Positions 51,972 through 60,025 of a DNA stretch of 64,000 nucleotides are shown piece after piece. Below the pieces are notes generated by a model. It was not told the DNA's origin, made no database searches, and saw only the letters and a list, made by a program, of their open reading frames with translations. The stretch lies in contig NZ_JACOFZ010000005.1 in NCBI RefSeq assembly GCF_014284155.1, positions 124,001 through 188,000 on the forward strand, given 5' to 3'. The position numbers and the translations under genes were made by a program. Within the stretch, counting starts at the first letter, position 1. Each line of letters starts with the position of its first letter. Source of the stretch: Affinundibacterium nitidum (GTDB taxonomy: Bacteria > Pseudomonadota > Gammaproteobacteria > Burkholderiales > Burkholderiaceae_D).

Positions 51972-52013
51972 CCCTCCAATGCATCTATGCCTAGATGTTT
52001 GGAGGGTTTTTTT
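51972..52013 (+). terminator. Rho-independent terminator after gltD
   Basis: Stem CCCTCCAA / TTGGAGGG with an inner CATCT/AGATG pairing and a T7 tail (52007-52013), 52 bp beyond the stop. Its T-run overlaps the stop codon of the convergent 2OG oxygenase gene. Confidence 0.93.
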
Positions 52014-52587
52014 ATGCCTCTGGATTCTGACTATCGATAGACGCTGCTGAATACATGACATCAGTACGAAGAACGTATTTGATACCACTATGAACATTCG
52101 CTCCTTGATGAACAAGCCGGTGTGGAAATATTACAGCAGTGCCAAGCCGGGTCGCGACTTTTCCCCATCGAAACTCAGTCTCCCCGCCTGTGAATTCGTC
52201 GTTCAGGTAAATTAAGAATGTAAGTAGGCTACGTTCCTTGTCACTCCGTACGACGTGACCGTCTCTGTGCCATTTGAAGTATTGTCCTGCCCCGTATCGA
52301 TAGAAACGAAGTCGATGATTCAGCCCGATTAAGCTCTCACCACCCAATTGTGGCGGTAGTACCATTTTTGCTTTATGAAACAGTTGTTCCGCTAGCTTGC
52401 TATCTTCAATGTTTACACGATCATTGTTTCGAATGTCCTCCATCAATAGAGGTCCATTGCGTGGGTGTTGAACACTAGCCTGATGAAAACCACAGCGCTC
52501 GCTGAATTTAATATAGGATCGACACTCGTTTTCGCTTAGAAAATCGTGAATCACGAATGCCGATTCTTGTAGGTGTTCTATCTTCAT
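52012..52587 (-). CDS. 2-oxoglutarate/Fe(II)-dependent oxygenase, prolyl 4-hydroxylase-like
   Basis: A 191-aa cupin-fold oxygenase expected to hydroxylate an amino-acid side chain or small molecule with O2 and 2-oxoglutarate. Metal ligands are H-x-D in FKWHRDGHVV and the distal His in IFPHRLVHQGANV; a Lys/Arg after it (KYVLRTDVMY) would bind 2-oxoglutarate. The N-terminal part (FVIHDFLSENECRSYIKFSE) resembles P4H alpha domains. It is last of three genes with the macrodomain and ADP-ribosylglycohydrolase genes (32-bp gap), a neighbour not usually expected in an ADP-ribose unit. Confidence 0.87.
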   Translation of the reverse strand: MKIEHLQESAFVIHDFLSENECRSYIKFSERCGFHQASVQHPRNGPLLMEDIRNNDRVNIEDSKLAEQLFHKAKMVLPPQLGGESLIGLNHRLRFYRYGAGQYFKWHRDGHVVRSDKERSLLTFLIYLNDEFTGGETEFRWGKVATRLGTAVIFPHRLVHQGANVHSGIKYVLRTDVMYSAASIDSQNPEA

Positions 52588-52619
52588 GATTCATATAAAG
52601 TGTTGATTCAGGAATGCCT

Positions 52620-53132
52620 CTAAGGTGATTGGCGCGACATGTGACTCCCATAGATCAGTTTATCTTGCTCGCTAAAACAGCAAAAAACGACCTCGGTGAG
52701 TGAAGTGGTTTCTTCTGCAAACGCCAACACCGTTTCAATCGCGATAGAACTTGCGAGTTCTATAGGGAAGCGATAAACACCGGTGCTAATCGCTGGAAAA
52801 GCAATGGATTTTAGATTCAGTTCTGTTGCGATCTGAAGTGAATTCCGATAGCAGTCGGCAAGTAGTTCGGCTTCTTGACGATTTCCACCATGCCAGATTG
52901 GACCGACGGTGTGAATCACATAAGCAGCCGGTAGATTAAAGCCAGCCGTGTATTTCGCCTCGCCCGTCTTGCATCCATGTAGGGCTCTGCATGCTTCGAG
53001 CAATTGTTTTCCCGCCGCTTTGTGAATTGCACCATCCACACCACCACCACCCAGCAGTGATGAATTCGCCGCATTGACGATGGCATCGACTGATAACTTT
53101 GTGATGTCAGATTTGATGATAGTGATTTTCAT
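52620..53132 (-). CDS. Macrodomain protein, O-acetyl-ADP-ribose deacetylase-like
   Basis: A 170-aa macrodomain binding or hydrolysing ADP-ribose adducts. Key blocks are [39 protein letters not shown], and [13 protein letters not shown], as in YmdB/MacroD-type enzymes that release ADP-ribose from acetyl-ADP-ribose or mono-ADP-ribosylated acidic residues. It is complete. Lies 15 bp after the ADP-ribosylglycohydrolase gene and so is probably co-transcribed with it. Confidence 0.93.
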
Positions 53133-53147
53133 GATTACTTTCTTTGC

Positions 53148-54086
53148 TTATTTGCGCGCTGGTGTCGTTTTGCATTCTGATCGGTGAAATAGCGCTAACG
53201 CCATTTGTTCTATGTCTTCTCTTAATGAAATTTGCGATCTCCATTCAATTGGTATGGCTCCAAAACCGTAATTTGCTCCAGCTATTTGCCCTGTGACAGC
53301 TGCGGTGGTGTCTGCATCGTCGCCTAGATTTACTGCTTTCAGAACCGCGTCGCTATATGATTCAGTCGTGAAGAAACACCAAAGCGCTGCTTCAAGGGAA
53401 TCGACGCAATATCCAGAACCGCGAATTTGTGAGCGGGTCTTCGTTTGGAAGTCGCCTCTTTTTATGGATTTTACTTTTTCCATACTTGGATCGAACTTGA
53501 GCTGATGAAGCAATTTGTCTTTTTCTATGCCGTCGAAGATATGAAAGAGGACGTCTCCAAGTAGCTGACAGCATTCAATTGCTTCTGTTGCCCCATGGGT
53601 CGTTCGAGAGCTAATTGAAGCGTTTCGCATAGCATCGGCATGATTCGGGTAGCTGAACATAATTACTGGAGCAAGACGCATTATCGAACCATTTCCAGCA
53701 GTATTCTCAGCAATAGATCCGCAAAATGGTTCGCCAGTATGGGCAAATCTCGCGATCGCATCGCGGACGGTATGTCCTATGTCAAAGCATTCCCCGGTCG
53801 AGCTCAAATAGCCCCATTCATACCAGTTTCGATATCGATTTAGTTGGTCAATTGGGTCGCAACTATCCTTGGTCAATAGACTCTCCGCTAGACATAGTGC
53901 CATGGATGTGTCATCCGTCCATTGTCCAGCTTTTAGGCTGAATGGCCCTCCACCATGCATTCCTGTAACTTCAGTAAAGGAATCTCTTGGAGAAAATTCG
54001 ACTGTTGTGCCTATCGCGTCGCCACAGGCTAAGCCGATTAACGCGCCTTTAAACCGATCGGCCATGTTTATTTTTGAATGTTCCAT
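53148..54086 (-). CDS. ADP-ribosylglycohydrolase family protein
   Basis: A DraG/ARH-like hydrolase that removes ADP-ribose from arginine, serine or DNA bases. About 312 aa from the ATG at 54086 (MEHSKINMADRFKG); a second ATG is at 54065, and the frame is open to 54248, but the predicted promoter at 54125-54153 puts transcription start near 54117, ruling out that long form. Metal-binding blocks are visible: GALIGLACGDAIG, GQWTDDTSMAL (Thr-Asp-Asp) and NLGDDADTTAAVTGQIAGA. Two gaps: no ADP-ribosyltransferase gene is seen. It starts a draG-macro-2OG oxygenase unit divergent from nrtR. Confidence 0.9.
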   Translation of the reverse strand: MEHSKINMADRFKGALIGLACGDAIGTTVEFSPRDSFTEVTGMHGGGPFSLKAGQWTDDTSMALCLAESLLTKDSCDPIDQLNRYRNWYEWGYLSSTGECFDIGHTVRDAIARFAHTGEPFCGSIAENTAGNGSIMRLAPVIMFSYPNHADAMRNASISSRTTHGATEAIECCQLLGDVLFHIFDGIEKDKLLHQLKFDPSMEKVKSIKRGDFQTKTRSQIRGSGYCVDSLEAALWCFFTTESYSDAVLKAVNLGDDADTTAAVTGQIAGANYGFGAIPIEWRSQISLREDIEQMALALFHRSECKTTPARK

Positions 54087-54124
54087 TTTCGAAGTGAGTC
54101 GCTCTTTTGATATGTGTTCATGCA

Positions 54125-54157
54125 AGCATACATATGTTCGTTGTAATTCGCAACTAA
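54125..54157 (-). promoter_or_regulatory. Promoter and putative NrtR operator of the ADP-ribosylglycohydrolase unit
   Basis: Minus-strand promoter TTGCGA (54148-54153), 17-bp spacer, TATGCT (54125-54130). A dyad TTCGTTG-N7-CAACTAA at 54137-54157 overlaps the -35 box. Its half-site matches those at the two other predicted NrtR operators. Confidence 0.6.
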
Positions 54158-54180
54158 GTTCGTTGAACTTTTGCACTATC

Positions 54181-54221
54181 TTAGTTGTAAAATTGCACCA
54201 ATAGACATTCGCGCTTACAAT
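54181..54221 (+). promoter_or_regulatory. Promoter and putative NrtR operator of nrtR
   Basis: TTGCAC (54193-54198), 17-bp spacer, TACAAT (54216-54221). The 21-bp element TTAGTTG-N7-GCACCAA (54181-54201) overlaps the -35, suggesting autoregulation. The AAGGAG ribosome site follows near 54235. Confidence 0.65.
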
Positions 54222-54246
54222 ACTCGCTTCAACTAAGGAGTTTGCC

Positions 54247-54987
54247 ATGCTGAATAAAGCGCAGTCTGAGAAAGAATTTTTGAAGAATTACAATATTCAT
54301 GACTACGATATTCCATTAACGAGTGTAGATCTTGTGATTTTTACGATTCGTGAACAGTGCTTGCATGTACTGTTGGTGAAGCGCGGCGATTTTCCGTTTA
54401 AAGGAGAGTGGAGTCTGCCAGGCGGTTTTATTGATGTGCATAAAGACAAGGATCTTGATGCTACGGCGTTGCGTAAATTGCGCGAGAAAACCGGCGTTCG
54501 GGTGCCGTATCTGGAGCAGCTGCAAGGTTTTGGCTCTCGTACTCGTGATCCTCGTGGCTGGTCGACGACCTTTGTGTATTTCTCCCTCATCGCTTCCGAT
54601 CAAATTGAACTCGCACACGGCGGTACGGCCGACGCTGCGCAGTGGTTTCCGATTAATGCCGAATCGCGCTTACCGAAGCTGGCGTTTGATCATGCGGAAA
54701 TTTTTCAAGTTGCATTGCAACGTTTATATAACAAAGTCGAATATAGCTCTTTAGCTGCACATTTGTTGCCAACTGAATTCACGCTTACCGACTTACAGCA
54801 GGTTTATCAAATTGTGCTGGGGCGACAAATTGATAAGAGCGCGTTTCGTAAGCGCATTAAAGAGGGAAACTTCTTGGATGAACTTGAAGGGCAATTTCGC
54901 TATGGCAGCAATCGCCCTGCTCAGCTCTATAGGATTAAAGAAGGCAGTGGTCTTGTGTATTACAGTCGCACTCTCAGCAATGAATAG
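54247..54987 (+). CDS. nrtR: NrtR, Nudix-related regulator of NAD metabolism
   Basis: A 246-aa repressor: N-terminal Nudix-like domain and C-terminal winged helix (residues about 165-240: FTLTDLQQVYQIVLG, RKRIKEGNFLDELEG). The Nudix box, normally GX5EX7REUXEEXGU, reads with Lys for the first Glu and RKLREKTG in place of REUXEEXG, so the catalytic Glu residues are lost, as in known NrtR proteins that bind ADP-ribose as effector instead of hydrolysing it. It is placed between an NAD salvage operon and a divergent deADP-ribosylation unit. Strong ribosome site AAGGAG. It is not likely to be an active hydrolase. Confidence 0.92.
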   Translation: MLNKAQSEKEFLKNYNIHDYDIPLTSVDLVIFTIREQCLHVLLVKRGDFPFKGEWSLPGGFIDVHKDKDLDATALRKLREKTGVRVPYLEQLQGFGSRTRDPRGWSTTFVYFSLIASDQIELAHGGTADAAQWFPINAESRLPKLAFDHAEIFQVALQRLYNKVEYSSLAAHLLPTEFTLTDLQQVYQIVLGRQIDKSAFRKRIKEGNFLDELEGQFRYGSNRPAQLYRIKEGSGLVYYSRTLSNE

Positions 54988-55007
54988 CCAGCTCAAAAAA
55001 ACATGAA

Positions 55008-55043
55008 TACTTAGTTGCGTTTTTACACTAAGTATCCTACAAT
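55008..55043 (+). promoter_or_regulatory. Promoter and putative NrtR operator of the NAD salvage operon
   Basis: TTGCGT (55015-55020), 17-bp spacer, TACAAT (55038-55043). The dyad TACTTAGT-N11-ACTAAGTA (55008-55034), core TTAGTTG-N7-ACACTAA, covers the -35 and most of the spacer, so bound repressor would block RNA polymerase. Confidence 0.75.
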
Positions 55044-55116
55044 GCTTTTACAGTCACACATTCAGCTGAATTCTGAATGGTATTTGAGACTTGAGAACTT
55101 TGAGAAAGGCAATGCC

Positions 55117-55965
55117 ATGCAAGCACGTCAGCATCTATTGATTATCGATCCGCAAAATGATTTTTGTGATCTCCCTGCGCAGTATTTACCACAAGCGCTC
55201 AATGGCAAAACCGTGGTGCCCGCGTTGCCCGTAGCAGGTGCGCATGCCGATATGCAGCGGGTTGCGCATTTGATTGATACTTATGGCCATCAACTAACCG
55301 CGATTACTGTGACACTCGACTCGCATCATCGATTCGATATAGCCCATCCGAGTTTTTGGAGAAAAGCAGATGGTAGCGATGTGAGTCCGTTCACCCAAAT
55401 CAGTTTGCAGGAATTCAAAGCAGGTGAGTTTGTGCCGCGTCTCGAATCTGCGAAAGCACGGGTTCAGGCCTATCTCGAAACTTTAGAGAGCGCAGGCAGT
55501 TATCGGTTGATGATTTGGCCGGTGCATTGTGAAATTGGCAGTTGGGGGCACAATGTTCATGCCGATGTACGTGCTGCATATAATCGCTGGGAAGATCAGC
55601 ATAAGGCTGTGGTGGAGATGGTGTATAAAGGCTCTAACCCATGGACAGAGCACTATTCAGCGATGATGGCTGAAGTGCCAGATGATACAGATCCTGATAC
55701 GCAATTGAATCAAGACTTGCTAAAGACCTTGAGAAGCGCCGATAGTGTGTTGATTTGCGGAGAAGCGAGTAGCCATTGTGTGCGTGCAAGTACAGAGCAC
55801 ATCGTCGCTAACTGGCCTCAAGATCGCTTATCTCAACTGGTGTTGTTAAGTGATTGCATGAGTGCGGTGACAGGTTTTGAACAAGCTGGTGACGACTTTC
55901 TGAAGGATATGCGCAATCGCGGCTTACGCATCATGAAGTCGACAGAACTCGTCAATCAAAAATAA
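55117..55965 (+). CDS. Isochorismatase-fold cysteine hydrolase, probable nicotinamidase
   Basis: Probably converts nicotinamide to nicotinate for pncB next to it. The isochorismatase-fold triad is readable: Asp in [10 protein letters not shown] (residue 11), Lys in [10 protein letters not shown] and Cys in [11 protein letters not shown]. At 282 aa it is longer than usual PncA (about 180-215 aa), with extra residues in the middle (about 95-145 and 180-200); PncA is therefore favoured by context more than by length. The frame starts at 55015, but ATG 55117 ([11 protein letters not shown]) fits the family and lies downstream of the predicted promoter. Confidence 0.82.
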
Positions 55966-55999
55966 GACCGAGATCGTACCCATTTTTGGAGAAAATTCT

Positions 56000-57190
56000 A
56001 TGCAACCCGTCGTTCGCAGTCTGTTAGAAAACGATCTTTACAAATTTACGATGTGGCAGGCTTTTCTACATAGTCATCCTGATACTCAGACGGAATATGC
56101 ATTTGTGTGTCGCAATATACCAGCTTATCCTTTGGCGGCGCTGAAGGAGGATGTAGAACGTGAACTTGATCACTTATGTAGTTTAAGCTTTGCGAGTGAT
56201 GAGCTCGACTACCTACGCCAGCTGCGTTACATCAAAAGTGACTTCGTCGATTTTCTGACCATCTTCCGCTTTCAGCGTAAGTTCATCGAAGTAAGTGTCG
56301 ACGGCGATACCCTGCAGATCATTGCCAAAGGCCCACAAGTACACGTTATGGGCTTCGAGATTTTCGTGCTGTATATCGTCAACGAATTGTATTTCCGTCG
56401 ATTGGGTAAGGATGAAGTAATGGCCGAAGGACGCTTGCGTCTACGGAATAAGGTCGAACAGATCCGCCATTTGGCTTCGACGACTCTCAAGAAACACCCT
56501 TTTGAGTTCTTCGATTTTGGACTGCGTCGTCGCTTCTCTGGTGTGTGGCAAGAAGAAGTCGTGGCAACCCTTGCGCAGGAATTGCCACAGTATTTCAAAG
56601 GCTCTTCCAATGTGTATTTAGCCAAGAAATATAATCTGACTCCGATAGGCACGATGGCCCATGAGTATCTACAGTCATACCAATCGTTTGGTGTGCGCCT
56701 CCGTGATTTCCAGAAAGCAGCTTTGGAAGACTGGGTGCAGGAGTATCGCGGCGATCTCGGTACAGCCCTTACGGATGTCGTAGGCATGGATGCCTTTTTG
56801 GCCGACTTTGATCTGTATTTCGCAAAACTTTTTGACGGCTTACGGCATGACTCTGGTGATCCTATCGTCTGGGGTGAGAAAGCCTTGGCGCATTACGTCA
56901 AACTACGTATTGATGCCAATACAAAACGCTTGGTATTTTCTGATGGATTGGATGTGGCCACAGCGTTTTCACTCTACCAGCACTTTGCCGATCGTGTGAT
57001 GACAGGTTTTGGTATCGGTACCAACCTCAGCAACGATATGGGAATTACGCCTTTGAATATCGTGATGAAGATCGTGTCTTGCAATGGTCAGCCAGTAGCG
57101 AAGTTGTCTGATGCGAGTGGTAAGACTCTCTGCAAAGACGAAACTTTCCTTGCGTATTTGCGACAAGTTTTTCATCATCCAGTGCCATAA
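56000..57190 (+). CDS. pncB: Nicotinate phosphoribosyltransferase
   Basis: Forms nicotinate mononucleotide from nicotinate and PRPP with ATP hydrolysis (Preiss-Handler route). The 396-aa protein has the family opening [20 protein letters not shown], the catalytic region [32 protein letters not shown], the PRPP-site segment [11 protein letters not shown] and [17 protein letters not shown]. Full length. TGGAG precedes the ATG, 34 bp after the hydrolase stop; the gene is in the NAD operon. Confidence 0.97.
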
Positions 57191-57237
57191 GATGTTTGCC
57201 ACAGCTTATAACAAACGAAAACAATAAAGGTCAAAAG

Positions 57238-58938
57238 ATGTTGAATTTTGCCATTGCACAATGCAACTTTACGATCGGCGATTTCGCTGAAAACACCCAA
57301 AAAATAGTCGCTCGTATGCAGCAAGCTGCCGATGCCCAATCTGACTTGGTGATTTTTTCTGAATTGAGTGTATGTGGATACTATCCCGGCGATCTATTGG
57401 AAGATGTTCGATTTCTCAACGCCTGCAAGCAAGCTTTGGACTTGGTGCTCGCAGCTTCTTGCCAGCACCCACAAATCGTTACTGTGCTCGGTACTGTGCG
57501 CGATCACCACGGGCCAGGCAAGCCTCTGCACAATGGCTTGCTGGCGATTCAGAATGGAAAAATAGTCGCTGAGTATCACAAACAGCTCTTGCCCACTTAC
57601 GGTATATTTGACGAAGGACGTCATTTCGAGGCGGGCAAGGAAGGTGCTTGTACGCTCCAGATCGCTGGCCACCATATTGGATTTATGGTGTGTGAAGATG
57701 GTTGGAATGATGAAGGTAAAGACTATAAAGTCAACCCGTATGCGGCTTTAGAAAATGCGGGAGTTGAGCTGATTATCAGTATCAACGCAAGCCCTTCGGA
57801 TTTTGGAAAAAGAGAGCAACGTCATCGTTTGTTCAAGCAAGCGGCGCAAGCACATGATACGCCTATCGTTTATGTGAACCAGGTCGGTGGTCAAGATCAG
57901 TTAGTCTTCGATGGTTATTCTTTTGTTGTCAGTCCAGAGCAGGGCGTGGTGTTTGAAGCCGCTCCGTTCGAGGAAGATTTTGCATGCCTCGAATTTTCAA
58001 ACAAAGAATTCAAATTAGTTCAGCAGGTACAAGCGAAAACTGAAGAGGGTAGCTTACTCCCAGTTGAGTTTGCGCGACGTCAAATTGTTTTGGGTTTAAA
58101 AGATTATGCTCGTCGCTGCCACTTCACAAAAGCGGTTGTCGGATCTTCTGGAGGAATTGACTCAGCTTTAACTTTGGCTTTGGCCGTCGAAGCTTTAGGT
58201 GCTGAAAATGTGATTGCGATAACGATGCCCTCGGCGTATTCGAGCGAAGGTTCTGTGTCTGACTCGGTGAAACTATGCGAGGCTTTGGGTATTCCTCTGT
58301 TGAACCATCCAATTCTCGATCTGGTGAATCAATATAGTAGGGGATTTGAAGCAGCCTTCTCCAGCCCCCTGAAAGGCTTGAGCTTAGAGAATTTACAAGC
58401 GCGTGTGCGCGGTACGATCTTAATGGAATATTCGAATAGTTTTGGCGCGCTATTACTTACCACTGGTAATAAGAGTGAGATTTCGGTTGGTTACTGTACG
58501 CTCTACGGTGATACGAATGGTGGTTTAGGTTTAATTGGCGATTTGTATAAAACTGAAGTGTATGCTCTATCGCGACATGTCAATGAGCGTGCTGGACGAG
58601 AAATTATTCCGAATGACGTTCTCACCAAGCCACCATCAGCGGAACTTGCGCCAGGGCAGCTTGATACAGACAGTCTCCCTCCTTATGAAGAGCTCGATGA
58701 AATTTTGAAGTGGCATATTGAGGGCCGACGTTTGCCACAAGCGGAGGCGGCGCGAGCCGAAGACTTCGTTAATCGACTACTGGCAACGGAAAAAGGTAAA
58801 GCAACAGTGAAGCGTATCCTGGGAATGGTCGCTCGAAATGAGTATAAACGCCGTCAAGCACCACCGATTATTCGTGTTCGTGCACGTGCATTTGGCAGCG
58901 GTAGACAAATGCCGATTGCTGCTCATTACGAATTTTAA
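57238..58938 (+). CDS. nadE: Glutamine-dependent NAD+ synthetase
   Basis: Amidates nicotinate adenine dinucleotide to NAD+ using glutamine. The 566-aa protein has an N-terminal nitrilase domain with Glu (IFSELSVCGYYPGDL), Lys (EYHKQLLPTYGIFDEG) and Cys (FMVCEDGWND), and an NAD synthase domain with SGGIDS (GSSGGIDSALTLALA, about residue 303) and the ATP pyrophosphatase blocks TTGNKSEISVGYCTLYGD. AAAGG precedes ATG 57238; the frame is open to 57196. It lies 47 bp after pncB. Confidence 0.97.
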   Translation: MLNFAIAQCNFTIGDFAENTQKIVARMQQAADAQSDLVIFSELSVCGYYPGDLLEDVRFLNACKQALDLVLAASCQHPQIVTVLGTVRDHHGPGKPLHNGLLAIQNGKIVAEYHKQLLPTYGIFDEGRHFEAGKEGACTLQIAGHHIGFMVCEDGWNDEGKDYKVNPYAALENAGVELIISINASPSDFGKREQRHRLFKQAAQAHDTPIVYVNQVGGQDQLVFDGYSFVVSPEQGVVFEAAPFEEDFACLEFSNKEFKLVQQVQAKTEEGSLLPVEFARRQIVLGLKDYARRCHFTKAVVGSSGGIDSALTLALAVEALGAENVIAITMPSAYSSEGSVSDSVKLCEALGIPLLNHPILDLVNQYSRGFEAAFSSPLKGLSLENLQARVRGTILMEYSNSFGALLLTTGNKSEISVGYCTLYGDTNGGLGLIGDLYKTEVYALSRHVNERAGREIIPNDVLTKPPSAELAPGQLDTDSLPPYEELDEILKWHIEGRRLPQAEAARAEDFVNRLLATEKGKATVKRILGMVARNEYKRRQAPPIIRVRARAFGSGRQMPIAAHYEF

Positions 58939-58972
58939 GAACATCAATTGCTAGCAGTGATAGGACCAGAAG

Positions 58973-60025
58973 ATGCAAACAGATCAATTTGAAACACAAA
59001 CCGAAGTCGCTGTCGTCATCGGACGGTTTCAGCCTTTTCACTTAGGACATGCGCATCTCTTGCAAGCCGCCTTGGCTGCCGCGCCTCAAGTCGTGGTCGT
59101 GCTTGGTTCTTCATTTCATGCGCGTAGCGTGAAAAATCCCTTCACGTCGCAAGAGCGCATTGCGATGATTAATGCGACACTAGACGAAGCAACGAGAGGG
59201 CGCGTGCAGTTCGTAGCGGTTCGCGATTATTACGACGACGAGCGCTGGTCAAAAGCGGTACAGGCCAAGGTCATGCAATTGCATGCCAATGCCAAAAGTT
59301 ATACCTTGATTGGACACTTTAAAGATGCATCCAGTTATTACTTGAGGCGTTTCCCGCATTGGCGGTTACGTGAATGTGAAAATACGACCCAGATCGATGC
59401 AACAGCGATTCGTCGCGTGTTGTTTGAAGCTGAAAATGTTGAGGTTTCACTCGCAGTGCTTGAAGCGATGTTGCCACTTGCGGTTCGTCAGTATCTAAAA
59501 GCTTGGACTACGTTACCGGCTTTTGCGGCTTTGGTCGAAGAATACCGAGGTTTGCAAAAGTATAAACTGGCTTGGGCTAGCGCACCCTATCCACCTATCT
59601 TTTGCACAGTCGATTCGGTAGTTTGTACCAACCAGCATGTGTTATTGATTCAGCGCGGTGGTTTTCCGGGGAAGGGCTTATGGGCGCTACCGGGAGGCTT
59701 TCTTGATCCGCATGAACGCCTACAGCGGGCAGCGGTACGCGAGCTGAGAGAGGAAACAAAACTGGCGGTACTTGATTCCACGCTGGAGAATGCCTTGGTC
59801 GATGTCAAAGTGTTCGACCATCCAGACCGCAGTCAGCGTGGCCGCACCATTACTCATGCTTTTTATTTTGATCTCAAGCTTGATCATTTTCCAGATATCG
59901 AGGCCGATGATGATGCCGCCGCGGCAAAGTGGGTAGCGATCGCAGATATCCTAAGTATGGAAGAGCAGTTCTTTGATGACCACTTCCATATTTTGGATCA
60001 ATTCTTGCAGATCAGCGAACATTAG
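58973..60025 (+). CDS. nadM: Bifunctional nicotinamide-nucleotide adenylyltransferase / Nudix hydrolase
   Basis: A 350-aa fusion. The N-terminal adenylyltransferase (about 1-180) has GRFQPFHLGHAHLL with an HxGH site and the ISGT-like KNPFTSQERIAMINATL; it adenylates NMN or nicotinate mononucleotide. The C-terminal Nudix domain (about 200-350) has an intact-looking box: GGFLDPHERLQRA followed by AVRELREET, which may hydrolyse ADP-ribose or related dinucleotides. It is the next step between pncB and nadE in NAD synthesis. It lies 34 bp after nadE; AGGA is the ribosome site. Confidence 0.95.
   Translation: MQTDQFETQTEVAVVIGRFQPFHLGHAHLLQAALAAAPQVVVVLGSSFHARSVKNPFTSQERIAMINATLDEATRGRVQFVAVRDYYDDERWSKAVQAKVMQLHANAKSYTLIGHFKDASSYYLRRFPHWRLRECENTTQIDATAIRRVLFEAENVEVSLAVLEAMLPLAVRQYLKAWTTLPAFAALVEEYRGLQKYKLAWASAPYPPIFCTVDSVVCTNQHVLLIQRGGFPGKGLWALPGGFLDPHERLQRAAVRELREETKLAVLDSTLENALVDVKVFDHPDRSQRGRTITHAFYFDLKLDHFPDIEADDDAAAAKWVAIADILSMEEQFFDDHFHILDQFLQISEH

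Follow-up and report, generated by a model that had tools for sequence, protein, structure and literature searches.

Gene content of the region

Positions 52012 to 60025 of the window, the 64,000-nucleotide stretch of the Affinundibacterium nitidum genome analysed here, hold two divergent gene groups. The rightward group (plus strand) consists of nrtR followed by pncA-pncB-nadE-nadM, the last four separated by gaps of 34, 47 and 34 bp; the leftward group (minus strand) consists of a draG/ARH gene, a macrodomain gene and a 2OG-Fe(II) oxygenase gene, with gaps of 15 and 32 bp.

The 246-residue product of nrtR (54247-54987) comprises a Nudix domain and an NrtR winged-helix domain, both above the Pfam cut-offs (NrtR_WHD, E 2.3e-22). 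It matches PDB entries 3gz5 and 3gz6 (E 2e-49, for 3gz5 over residues 7-241) and scores 260.6 bits against the NCBIfam equivalog NF050029, under the 400-bit cut-off. Its Nudix box is degenerate, K replacing the first E, the E of RE and the second E of EE. Downstream, pncA (55117-55965) encodes a pncA-like nicotinamidase of the isochorismatase superfamily, with weak matches only and catalytic-type motifs present by inspection. Pfam and NCBIfam matches identify pncB (56000-57190; nicotinate phosphoribosyltransferase) and nadE (57238-58938; NAD+ synthase). The last gene, nadM (58973-60025), encodes an NMN adenylyltransferase with a Nudix half; it stays below the NCBIfam equivalog cut-offs, and the E, RE and EE residues of its Nudix half are intact.

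On the divergent side lie genes for an ARH-type ADP-ribosylglycohydrolase (53148-54065; 305 aa from an assumed ATG; Pfam E 2e-75; PDB 2cwc and 6dre), a macrodomain protein of the O-acetyl-ADP-ribose deacetylase type (52620-53132; Pfam E 3.5e-48; NCBIfam NF001664 above cut-off) and the 2OG-Fe(II) oxygenase (52012-52587; Pfam E 2e-12). These three make up the whole divergent unit, with no coupled ADP-ribosyltransferase or sirtuin, and Pfam found no coupled rhodanese-phosphatase domain among them; among the 23 type-A loci defined below, such a domain occurs near nrtR in L063 and L115 (by Pfam for L115 only). PADLOC, applied to 10 proteins, gave no match to ARH, the macrodomain protein or NrtR; it matched a generic 2OG model, PDC-M42C for the NADAR of L122, and nothing else.

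Predicted operators and promoters

Four unstranded 21-bp dyads with the consensus TTAGTTG-N7-CAACTAA lie in the region. Three abut upstream of nrtR, with starts at 54137, 54159 and 54181 in exact 22-bp register, and a single one precedes pncA. Relative to the core TTAGT-N11-ACTAA, dyad 1 (54137-54157, TTCGTTG-N7-CAACTAA) has one mismatch, dyad 2 (54159-54179, TTCGTTG-N7-GCACTAT, in full TTCGTTGAACTTTTGCACTAT) two, dyad 3 (54181-54201, TTAGTTG-N7-GCACCAA) one, and dyad 4 (55011-55031, TTAGTTG-N7-ACACTAA) none. The preliminary description had reported dyads 1, 3 and 4, and their letters and coordinates are exact; it had overlooked dyad 2, which lies 22 bp from both dyad 1 and dyad 3 and so makes of them a 22-bp-phased array of three. 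Dyad 2 is weaker by profile than its neighbours (R1 5.8 bits, minus strand) and has a counterpart at the equal array position in L056 and in L051, the relative whose NrtR is 96% identical.

Three of the four dyads overlap the -35 element of a predicted promoter with a conserved -10 position. Dyad 1 covers TTGCGA (54153-54148) of the predicted promoter of the divergent, draG-side unit (54125-54153, minus strand; -10 TATGCT, 54130-54125), dyad 3 covers TTGCAC (54193-54198) of that of nrtR (54193-54221, plus strand; TACAAT, 54216-54221), and dyad 4 covers TTGCGT (55015-55020) of that of pncA (55015-55043, plus strand; TACAAT, 55038-55043). The hexamers, each pair with a 17-bp spacer, are present as first described. 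The geometry said to be shared among them holds for the divergent unit and pncA, where the -10 begins 27 bases into the dyad, and not for nrtR, where it begins 35 bases in. None of the three passes a sigma-70 scan (9-of-12), whose yield was 10 promoter-like sites compared with 12.3 in shuffled sequence; support for these predicted promoters is their conservation.

In the 4.38-Mb genome, TTAGT-N11-ACTAA has two perfect matches (that of pncA and one at C11:1676856-1676876) and 92 with at most one mismatch, about one per 48 kb. Three of the 92 fall within 895 bp in this region, against an expectation of 0.019 (Poisson P about 1.1e-6, uncorrected for the choice of region). The second perfect match gives no profile match at E<=10. 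A search with the bare consensus and two mismatches found 1431 places and was unable to define a regulon; a profile was therefore used instead. This leave-out profile was built from sequence only, on 34 sites of relatives (one flank base is wrong in one of the 34 rows), with the sites of the window and of L051 excluded. Over the whole genome at E<=10 it returned only the pncA dyad (R2 E 0.055, the best match of the genome), dyad 3 (3.9) and dyad 1 (5.7), that is, the three dyads first reported and no other site. Taken singly, dyads 1 and 3 are at chance level (E 4-6), dyad 1 being weak when taken alone. The search scored 150 of 1688 candidates, and the PARG/KptA pairs described below went unlisted at E<=0.5, so that weak sites can be missed.

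Conservation of the operators in relatives

Among 44 genomes of the genus, 12 carry a type-A NrtR (67-100% identity to that of the window) and 13 a type-B NrtR (39-47%); none carries both at E<=1e-30. Type B is a label by identity, and the tree sets L073 and L074 apart from L071, L072, L075, L124 and L125. We compared 23 type-A loci, defined by an NrtR of at least 58% identity (the window, L051, L056-L066 and L107-L116) and drawn from 196 family, 399 order and 44 genus genomes and one genome-contig scan; ten loci at 50-54% identity (L067-L069, L117-L123) were kept apart from these. In the tree (44 rows, L126 dropped), the 23 fall in a 26-row fork that includes the gammaproteobacterial L053-L055, drawn open with support 88/78 and with long branches flagged. 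The loci share ancestry, and several of the genus genomes nearly copy one another; the counts that follow are therefore not independent.

A dyad with at most one mismatch lies within 200 bp upstream of nrtR in all 23 loci (300 shuffles: mean 0.28, maximum 3), and a pair of dyads 22 bp apart, with at most two mismatches each, in 20 (300 shuffles: mean 0.003, maximum 1). Eight loci show the 44-bp relation too, with three dyads in a row, and no observed pair of the 23 loci has a spacing other than 22 bp. L107 has the pair only with a 3-mismatch partner, and L058 and L113 have no clean pair. Outside the nrtR region, dyads with at most one mismatch occur in these loci only before pncA, plus one stray (L064). 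The dyads, on whose conservation in related genomes the preliminary description had made its proposal depend, are kept at the same promoters. In the loci at 50-54% identity the pairs are weaker: the spacing is 22 bp in L117, L118, L119 and L121 (with up to three mismatches), 23 or 24 bp in L068, L069 and L123, and 25 bp in L120, and no pair was found in L067 and L122.

The predicted -10 elements keep their positions as well. In 18 of the 23 type-A loci a divergent -10 (at most two mismatches to TATAAT) stands at +27 on the other strand of the first dyad (7 at the runner-up offset); it is absent there in the other five. For nrtR, 16 of the 23 loci have the -10 (at most one mismatch) at exactly +35 of the last dyad, and that of pncA (at most one mismatch) lies at +27 in all 11 type-A pncA promoters of the genus.

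This pncA is present in 19 of the 44 genus genomes, and all six type-A loci with an adjacent pncA or a remnant of it have the perfect dyad there. A remnant is all that is left in the twelfth type-A genome, G119: at its locus L057, only fragments of pncA and nadE match (residues 1-45 and 360-564), pncB was not found, and the perfect dyad persists 63 bp upstream of the pncA fragment.

Exchange of the divergent cassette

The first recognised gene divergent from nrtR differs widely among the 23 type-A loci: ARH in one (the window), KptA in three, a macrodomain gene in one, the 2OG oxygenase, third in the window's unit, in seven, PARG in seven and NADAR in one (at -449); none is recognised in L107 and L113, and the contig ends in L061. 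These identities come from Pfam on representatives and tblastn for the others. DUF4291, macrodomain, NADAR and DSP phosphatase genes come next in several loci.

Comparison with L051, the nearest relative, places an edge of the exchange. The window and L051 are homologous over the 2OG-macrodomain segment (52050-53136) and from nrtR onward (from 54144); the segment between is non-homologous, with ARH in the window and KptA-DUF4291 in L051, and homology resumes at 54144, inside dyad 1. On the tree, the 11 groups of cassette labels require 17 changes, compared with a minimum of 10 and a mean of 31 after shuffling, which indicates that cassettes are partly inherited and partly replaced. The regulator, the array and the predicted promoters are kept across relatives, while the divergent cassette swaps.

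We had considered draG as the conserved partner, and rejected it: the ARH of the window matched none of 25 loci by tblastn (1e-6). Wider clustering and searching in relatives found more distant or other ARH genes. In L117 and L119, the first gene divergent from nrtR encodes a 133-aa protein; that of L119 matches the N-terminal domain of A1S_2505, named a phage non-structural protein.

Sites away from nrtR

In the 44 genus genomes, the leave-out profile found nine promoters beyond those of nrtR and pncA in type-A genomes, all outside its training set. They precede ARH genes (L177, L178, L181 and L182), SPFH genes accompanied by a NAD-kinase-like gene (L177 and L178), a 2OG gene (L176) and the gene of a 119-aa protein (L179 and L180). 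A second dyad lies 22 bp off in all nine within three mismatches, and in six within two. In L178, L181 and L182 the SPFH or ARH gene has a divergent zinc-finger-like neighbour, which could be regulated in its place or together with it. Downstream of the ARH gene in L177 come a gene for a small macrodomain protein (just under the Pfam cut-off, with a weak DarG match) and then a second ARH gene; the ARH layout of L178 and L181 is similar by eye.

In 6 of the 11 type-A genomes with this pncA, near relatives whose effective number is therefore smaller, pncA lies on a contig other than that of nrtR or more than 0.8 Mb away. There it is divergent from PARG (five genomes) or from KptA-DSP (one, L142); KptA comes next in four of the PARG genomes, and in the fifth the stretch ends early. 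All six have a 22-bp pair (at most two mismatches each) on the PARG/KptA side, while pncA keeps its single dyad.

Seven of 20 2OG genes in the family have dyads, all seven in type-A genomes, and four of these are 22-bp pairs away from nrtR (L217, L218, L220 and L227). No dyads were found at the other eight type-A 2OG genes, among them that of the window, or at the five elsewhere; the difference between type-A and other genomes (7/15 against 0/5) is not significant (p 0.11). That ARH genes might be generally dyad-controlled was also considered and dropped: only 4 of 27 family ARH loci carry dyads, so that ARH as a family is not tied to NrtR.

A probable regulon joining NAD salvage to ADP-ribose removal

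From the operators and the gene content, we consider it quite probable that the region is an NrtR regulon in which NAD salvage, behind a single dyad, is joined to an exchangeable and mostly ADP-ribose-related cargo behind tandem dyads. NrtR appears to switch the three predicted promoters through the four matching sites. The initial proposal that one NrtR co-regulates NAD salvage, nrtR itself and the divergent ADP-ribose unit is supported as a prediction, the dyads being conserved and no other site of the genome reaching E<=10. Besides dyad 2 and the array, the proposal had missed the cassette exchange and, in relatives, the members away from nrtR.

NrtR dimers on the dyads would shut the three promoters by covering their -35 elements. 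Spaced by 22 bp, about two helical turns, the dimers of the array would lie along almost the same side of the helix and might cooperate in binding. Over the loci studied, erasers go with tandem dyads and pncA with a single one; our guess is that the single dyad gives looser control and the tandem dyads tighter control. The signal is probably ADP-ribose, a breakdown product of NAD, judging by other NrtR proteins. ADP-ribose releases NrtR of M. smegmatis from DNA, at 50 mM (PMC6800001), and that of S. sobrinus (PMC12735969), and C. glutamicum NrtR (NdnR) responds to NAD+ and not to ADP-ribose (PMC6800001, PMC4666351), so that the ligand here is not certain. ADP-ribose could arise from NAD consumption, or from ARH and the macrodomain protein as they clean ADP-ribosylated molecules. 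By loosening NrtR it would raise the erasers and pncA-pncB-nadE-nadM jointly; NadM, whose Nudix half is intact, may break down the inducer and so reset the switch.

Alternatively, this may be an ordinary NAD-salvage NrtR regulon with autoregulation, whose array acts on nrtR only and leaves the divergent ADP-ribose genes outside. For NrtR, regulation of NAD genes is what is established, the strongest dyad is that of pncA, and none of the eight type-B loci examined (L071-L075, L124-L126), which adjoin pncA-pncB-nadE-nadM or prs-NAMPT, has a 22-bp pair. However, dyad 1 covers the divergent -35, with the -10 conserved at +27 in 18 of 23 loci. Pairs at 22 bp also precede ARH, SPFH, 2OG and PARG/KptA genes located away from nrtR, and in L107 and L113, where no divergent cargo was recognised, the dyad on the divergent side is decayed or missing. 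We therefore regard this explanation as unlikely.

That the dyads are bound by another regulator common to these promoters we find more improbable still. NrtR binding to them is itself a prediction from sequence, and type-B NrtR loci also carry the motif. Against this, perfect pncA dyads track type-A NrtR even where pncA lies elsewhere in the genome: they occur in 11 of 11 type-A genomes, compared with 0 of 4 type-B and 1 of 4 NrtR-less ones (Fisher 1.6e-4), the exception being the NrtR-less G606, whose assembly is fragmented and 89% complete. Profile matches at E<=0.5 follow the same trend: they occur in all 12 type-A genomes (to which training contributed in part), in 6 of the 13 type-B genomes and in 4 of the 19 that lack NrtR, three of these last four being weak.

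Since the half-sites of the array alternate, both palindrome centres exist by construction, and the repeated unit could be read as the inner palindrome ACTAA-N-TTAGT at the dyad junctions and not as the 21-bp dyad. At the 11 type-A pncA promoters, however, TTAGT-N11-ACTAA is kept with no second dyad (at most two mismatches) in the 330 bp upstream, which makes this reading very improbable. Finally, a chance likeness of AT-rich promoter sequence, for which one might invoke the near matches found every 48 kb or so in the genome, is contradicted by the shuffles, the conservation and the fixed -10 offsets, and is hardly credible.

A bolder extension of the regulon reading is possible, although we would sooner bet against it. 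The type-A NrtR would chiefly sense ADP-ribose attack or turnover and not NAD supply; the fixed grammar (22-bp pairs for erasers, one dyad for pncA) would serve as the point of cassette exchange; the 2OG-Fe(II) oxygenase would be an unrecognised ADP-ribose-processing enzyme; and in some Undibacterium-like lineages this NrtR would govern the NAD salvage genes that in others face a type-B NrtR.

Relation to known systems

The regulator resembles the NrtR family (S. oneidensis NrtR, PDB 3gz5/3gz6, and M. smegmatis) in its order of domains (the winged helix following the Nudix domain, as in S. oneidensis), in its degenerate Nudix box, and in having a palindromic box at NAD genes and nrtR. It departs from that family in a target set that adds ADP-ribose hydrolases and in its phased 22-bp arrays. 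The consensus TTAGTTG-N7-CAACTAA differs from the mycobacterial GTTTTCGA-N7-TCGAAAAC (PMC6800001). AraR of Bacteroides is likewise an NrtR-family repressor with tandem semipalindromic 21-bp sites, but it is arabinose-responsive and its sites are 3 bp apart, in a 24-bp register, compared with 22 bp in the window (PMC4666351).

The nearest precedent is a set of predicted counter-ADP-ribosylation systems centred on ARG. According to PMC9503650 (section 3.8), these have Nudix or WYL regulators, induction by ADP-ribose and macrodomain and NADAR companions, and are predicted to protect against phage ADP-ribosylation enzymes; a rhodanese-phosphatase domain occurs in a little over 55% of ARG neighbourhoods and is therefore not required. 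As in these systems, an ARH/ARG gene and a macrodomain gene lie here beside a Nudix-HTH repressor, with ADP-ribose induction proposed in both cases, and the loci of relatives add NADAR and a DSP-type phosphatase. In contrast, one operator set here also joins NAD salvage, the operators are defined, KptA, DUF4291, PARG and the 2OG oxygenase share the slot, and the divergent genes of the window lack the phosphatase. PMC9503650 places KptA, which occurs in L051, L056 and L063, in the ART superfamily; its main text makes no mention of 2OG, dioxygenase, 2-oxoglutarate, hydroxylase, PARG or DUF4291.

NrtR regulons and Nudix-regulated ARG systems are thus already published, and the link between NAD recycling and ADP-ribose was partly predicted before. 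Among the titles and abstracts listed in our searches of open-licence literature, a scope outside which the founding NrtR papers fall, none brings NAD salvage and erasers together under one NrtR. Within the literature searchable, three features appear to be new: the grammar of the operators, their connection to NAD salvage and the 2OG member. The predicted Nudix-regulated eraser systems gain concrete operators, promoters and a target list, and removal of the ADP-ribose mark is tied to NAD recycling via one proposed signal. Two operator classes and a cassette exchange at a fixed promoter are testable with short DNA fragments, and the 2OG oxygenase is a specific candidate for unknown ADP-ribose chemistry.

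Further genes and sites

A few observations concern genes and sites at the margin of this set. Near positions 2980-3019 of L184 (G584:C56), two such dyads 39 bp apart precede a gene that is MarR-like by inspection, in an NrtR-less genome; they are probably a different element.

A protein of 119-125 aa (LYRPTGP...WPPRLPEQP) is encoded at L180:4272-4628, in L179 near 5835, and in L056 between pncA and pncB; in L179 and L180 it is under NrtR dyads. That of L180 has no Pfam or NCBIfam match, and its plasmid relatives are hypothetical or unannotated among the matches listed (8 of 12). Proteins like it are sometimes annotated 'ADP-ribosylation/crystallin J1'.

Cluster CL5 (L177:6082-7029, L069:505-1491 and relatives) groups proteins of about 300-330 aa encoded beside an SPFH/Band_7 gene, next to or under NrtR. 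The two tested have no Pfam match, and weak NCBIfam NAD-kinase matches were found (best E 6.9e-6).

On plasmids, relatives of NrtR reach up to 52% identity among the matches listed (12 of 393 records). One Variovorax plasmid record has no annotation around its NrtR relative. On Rhizobium etli p42f, SPFH and sugar-kinase genes lie divergent from the Nudix gene, and the 'sugar kinase' occupies the place of CL5.
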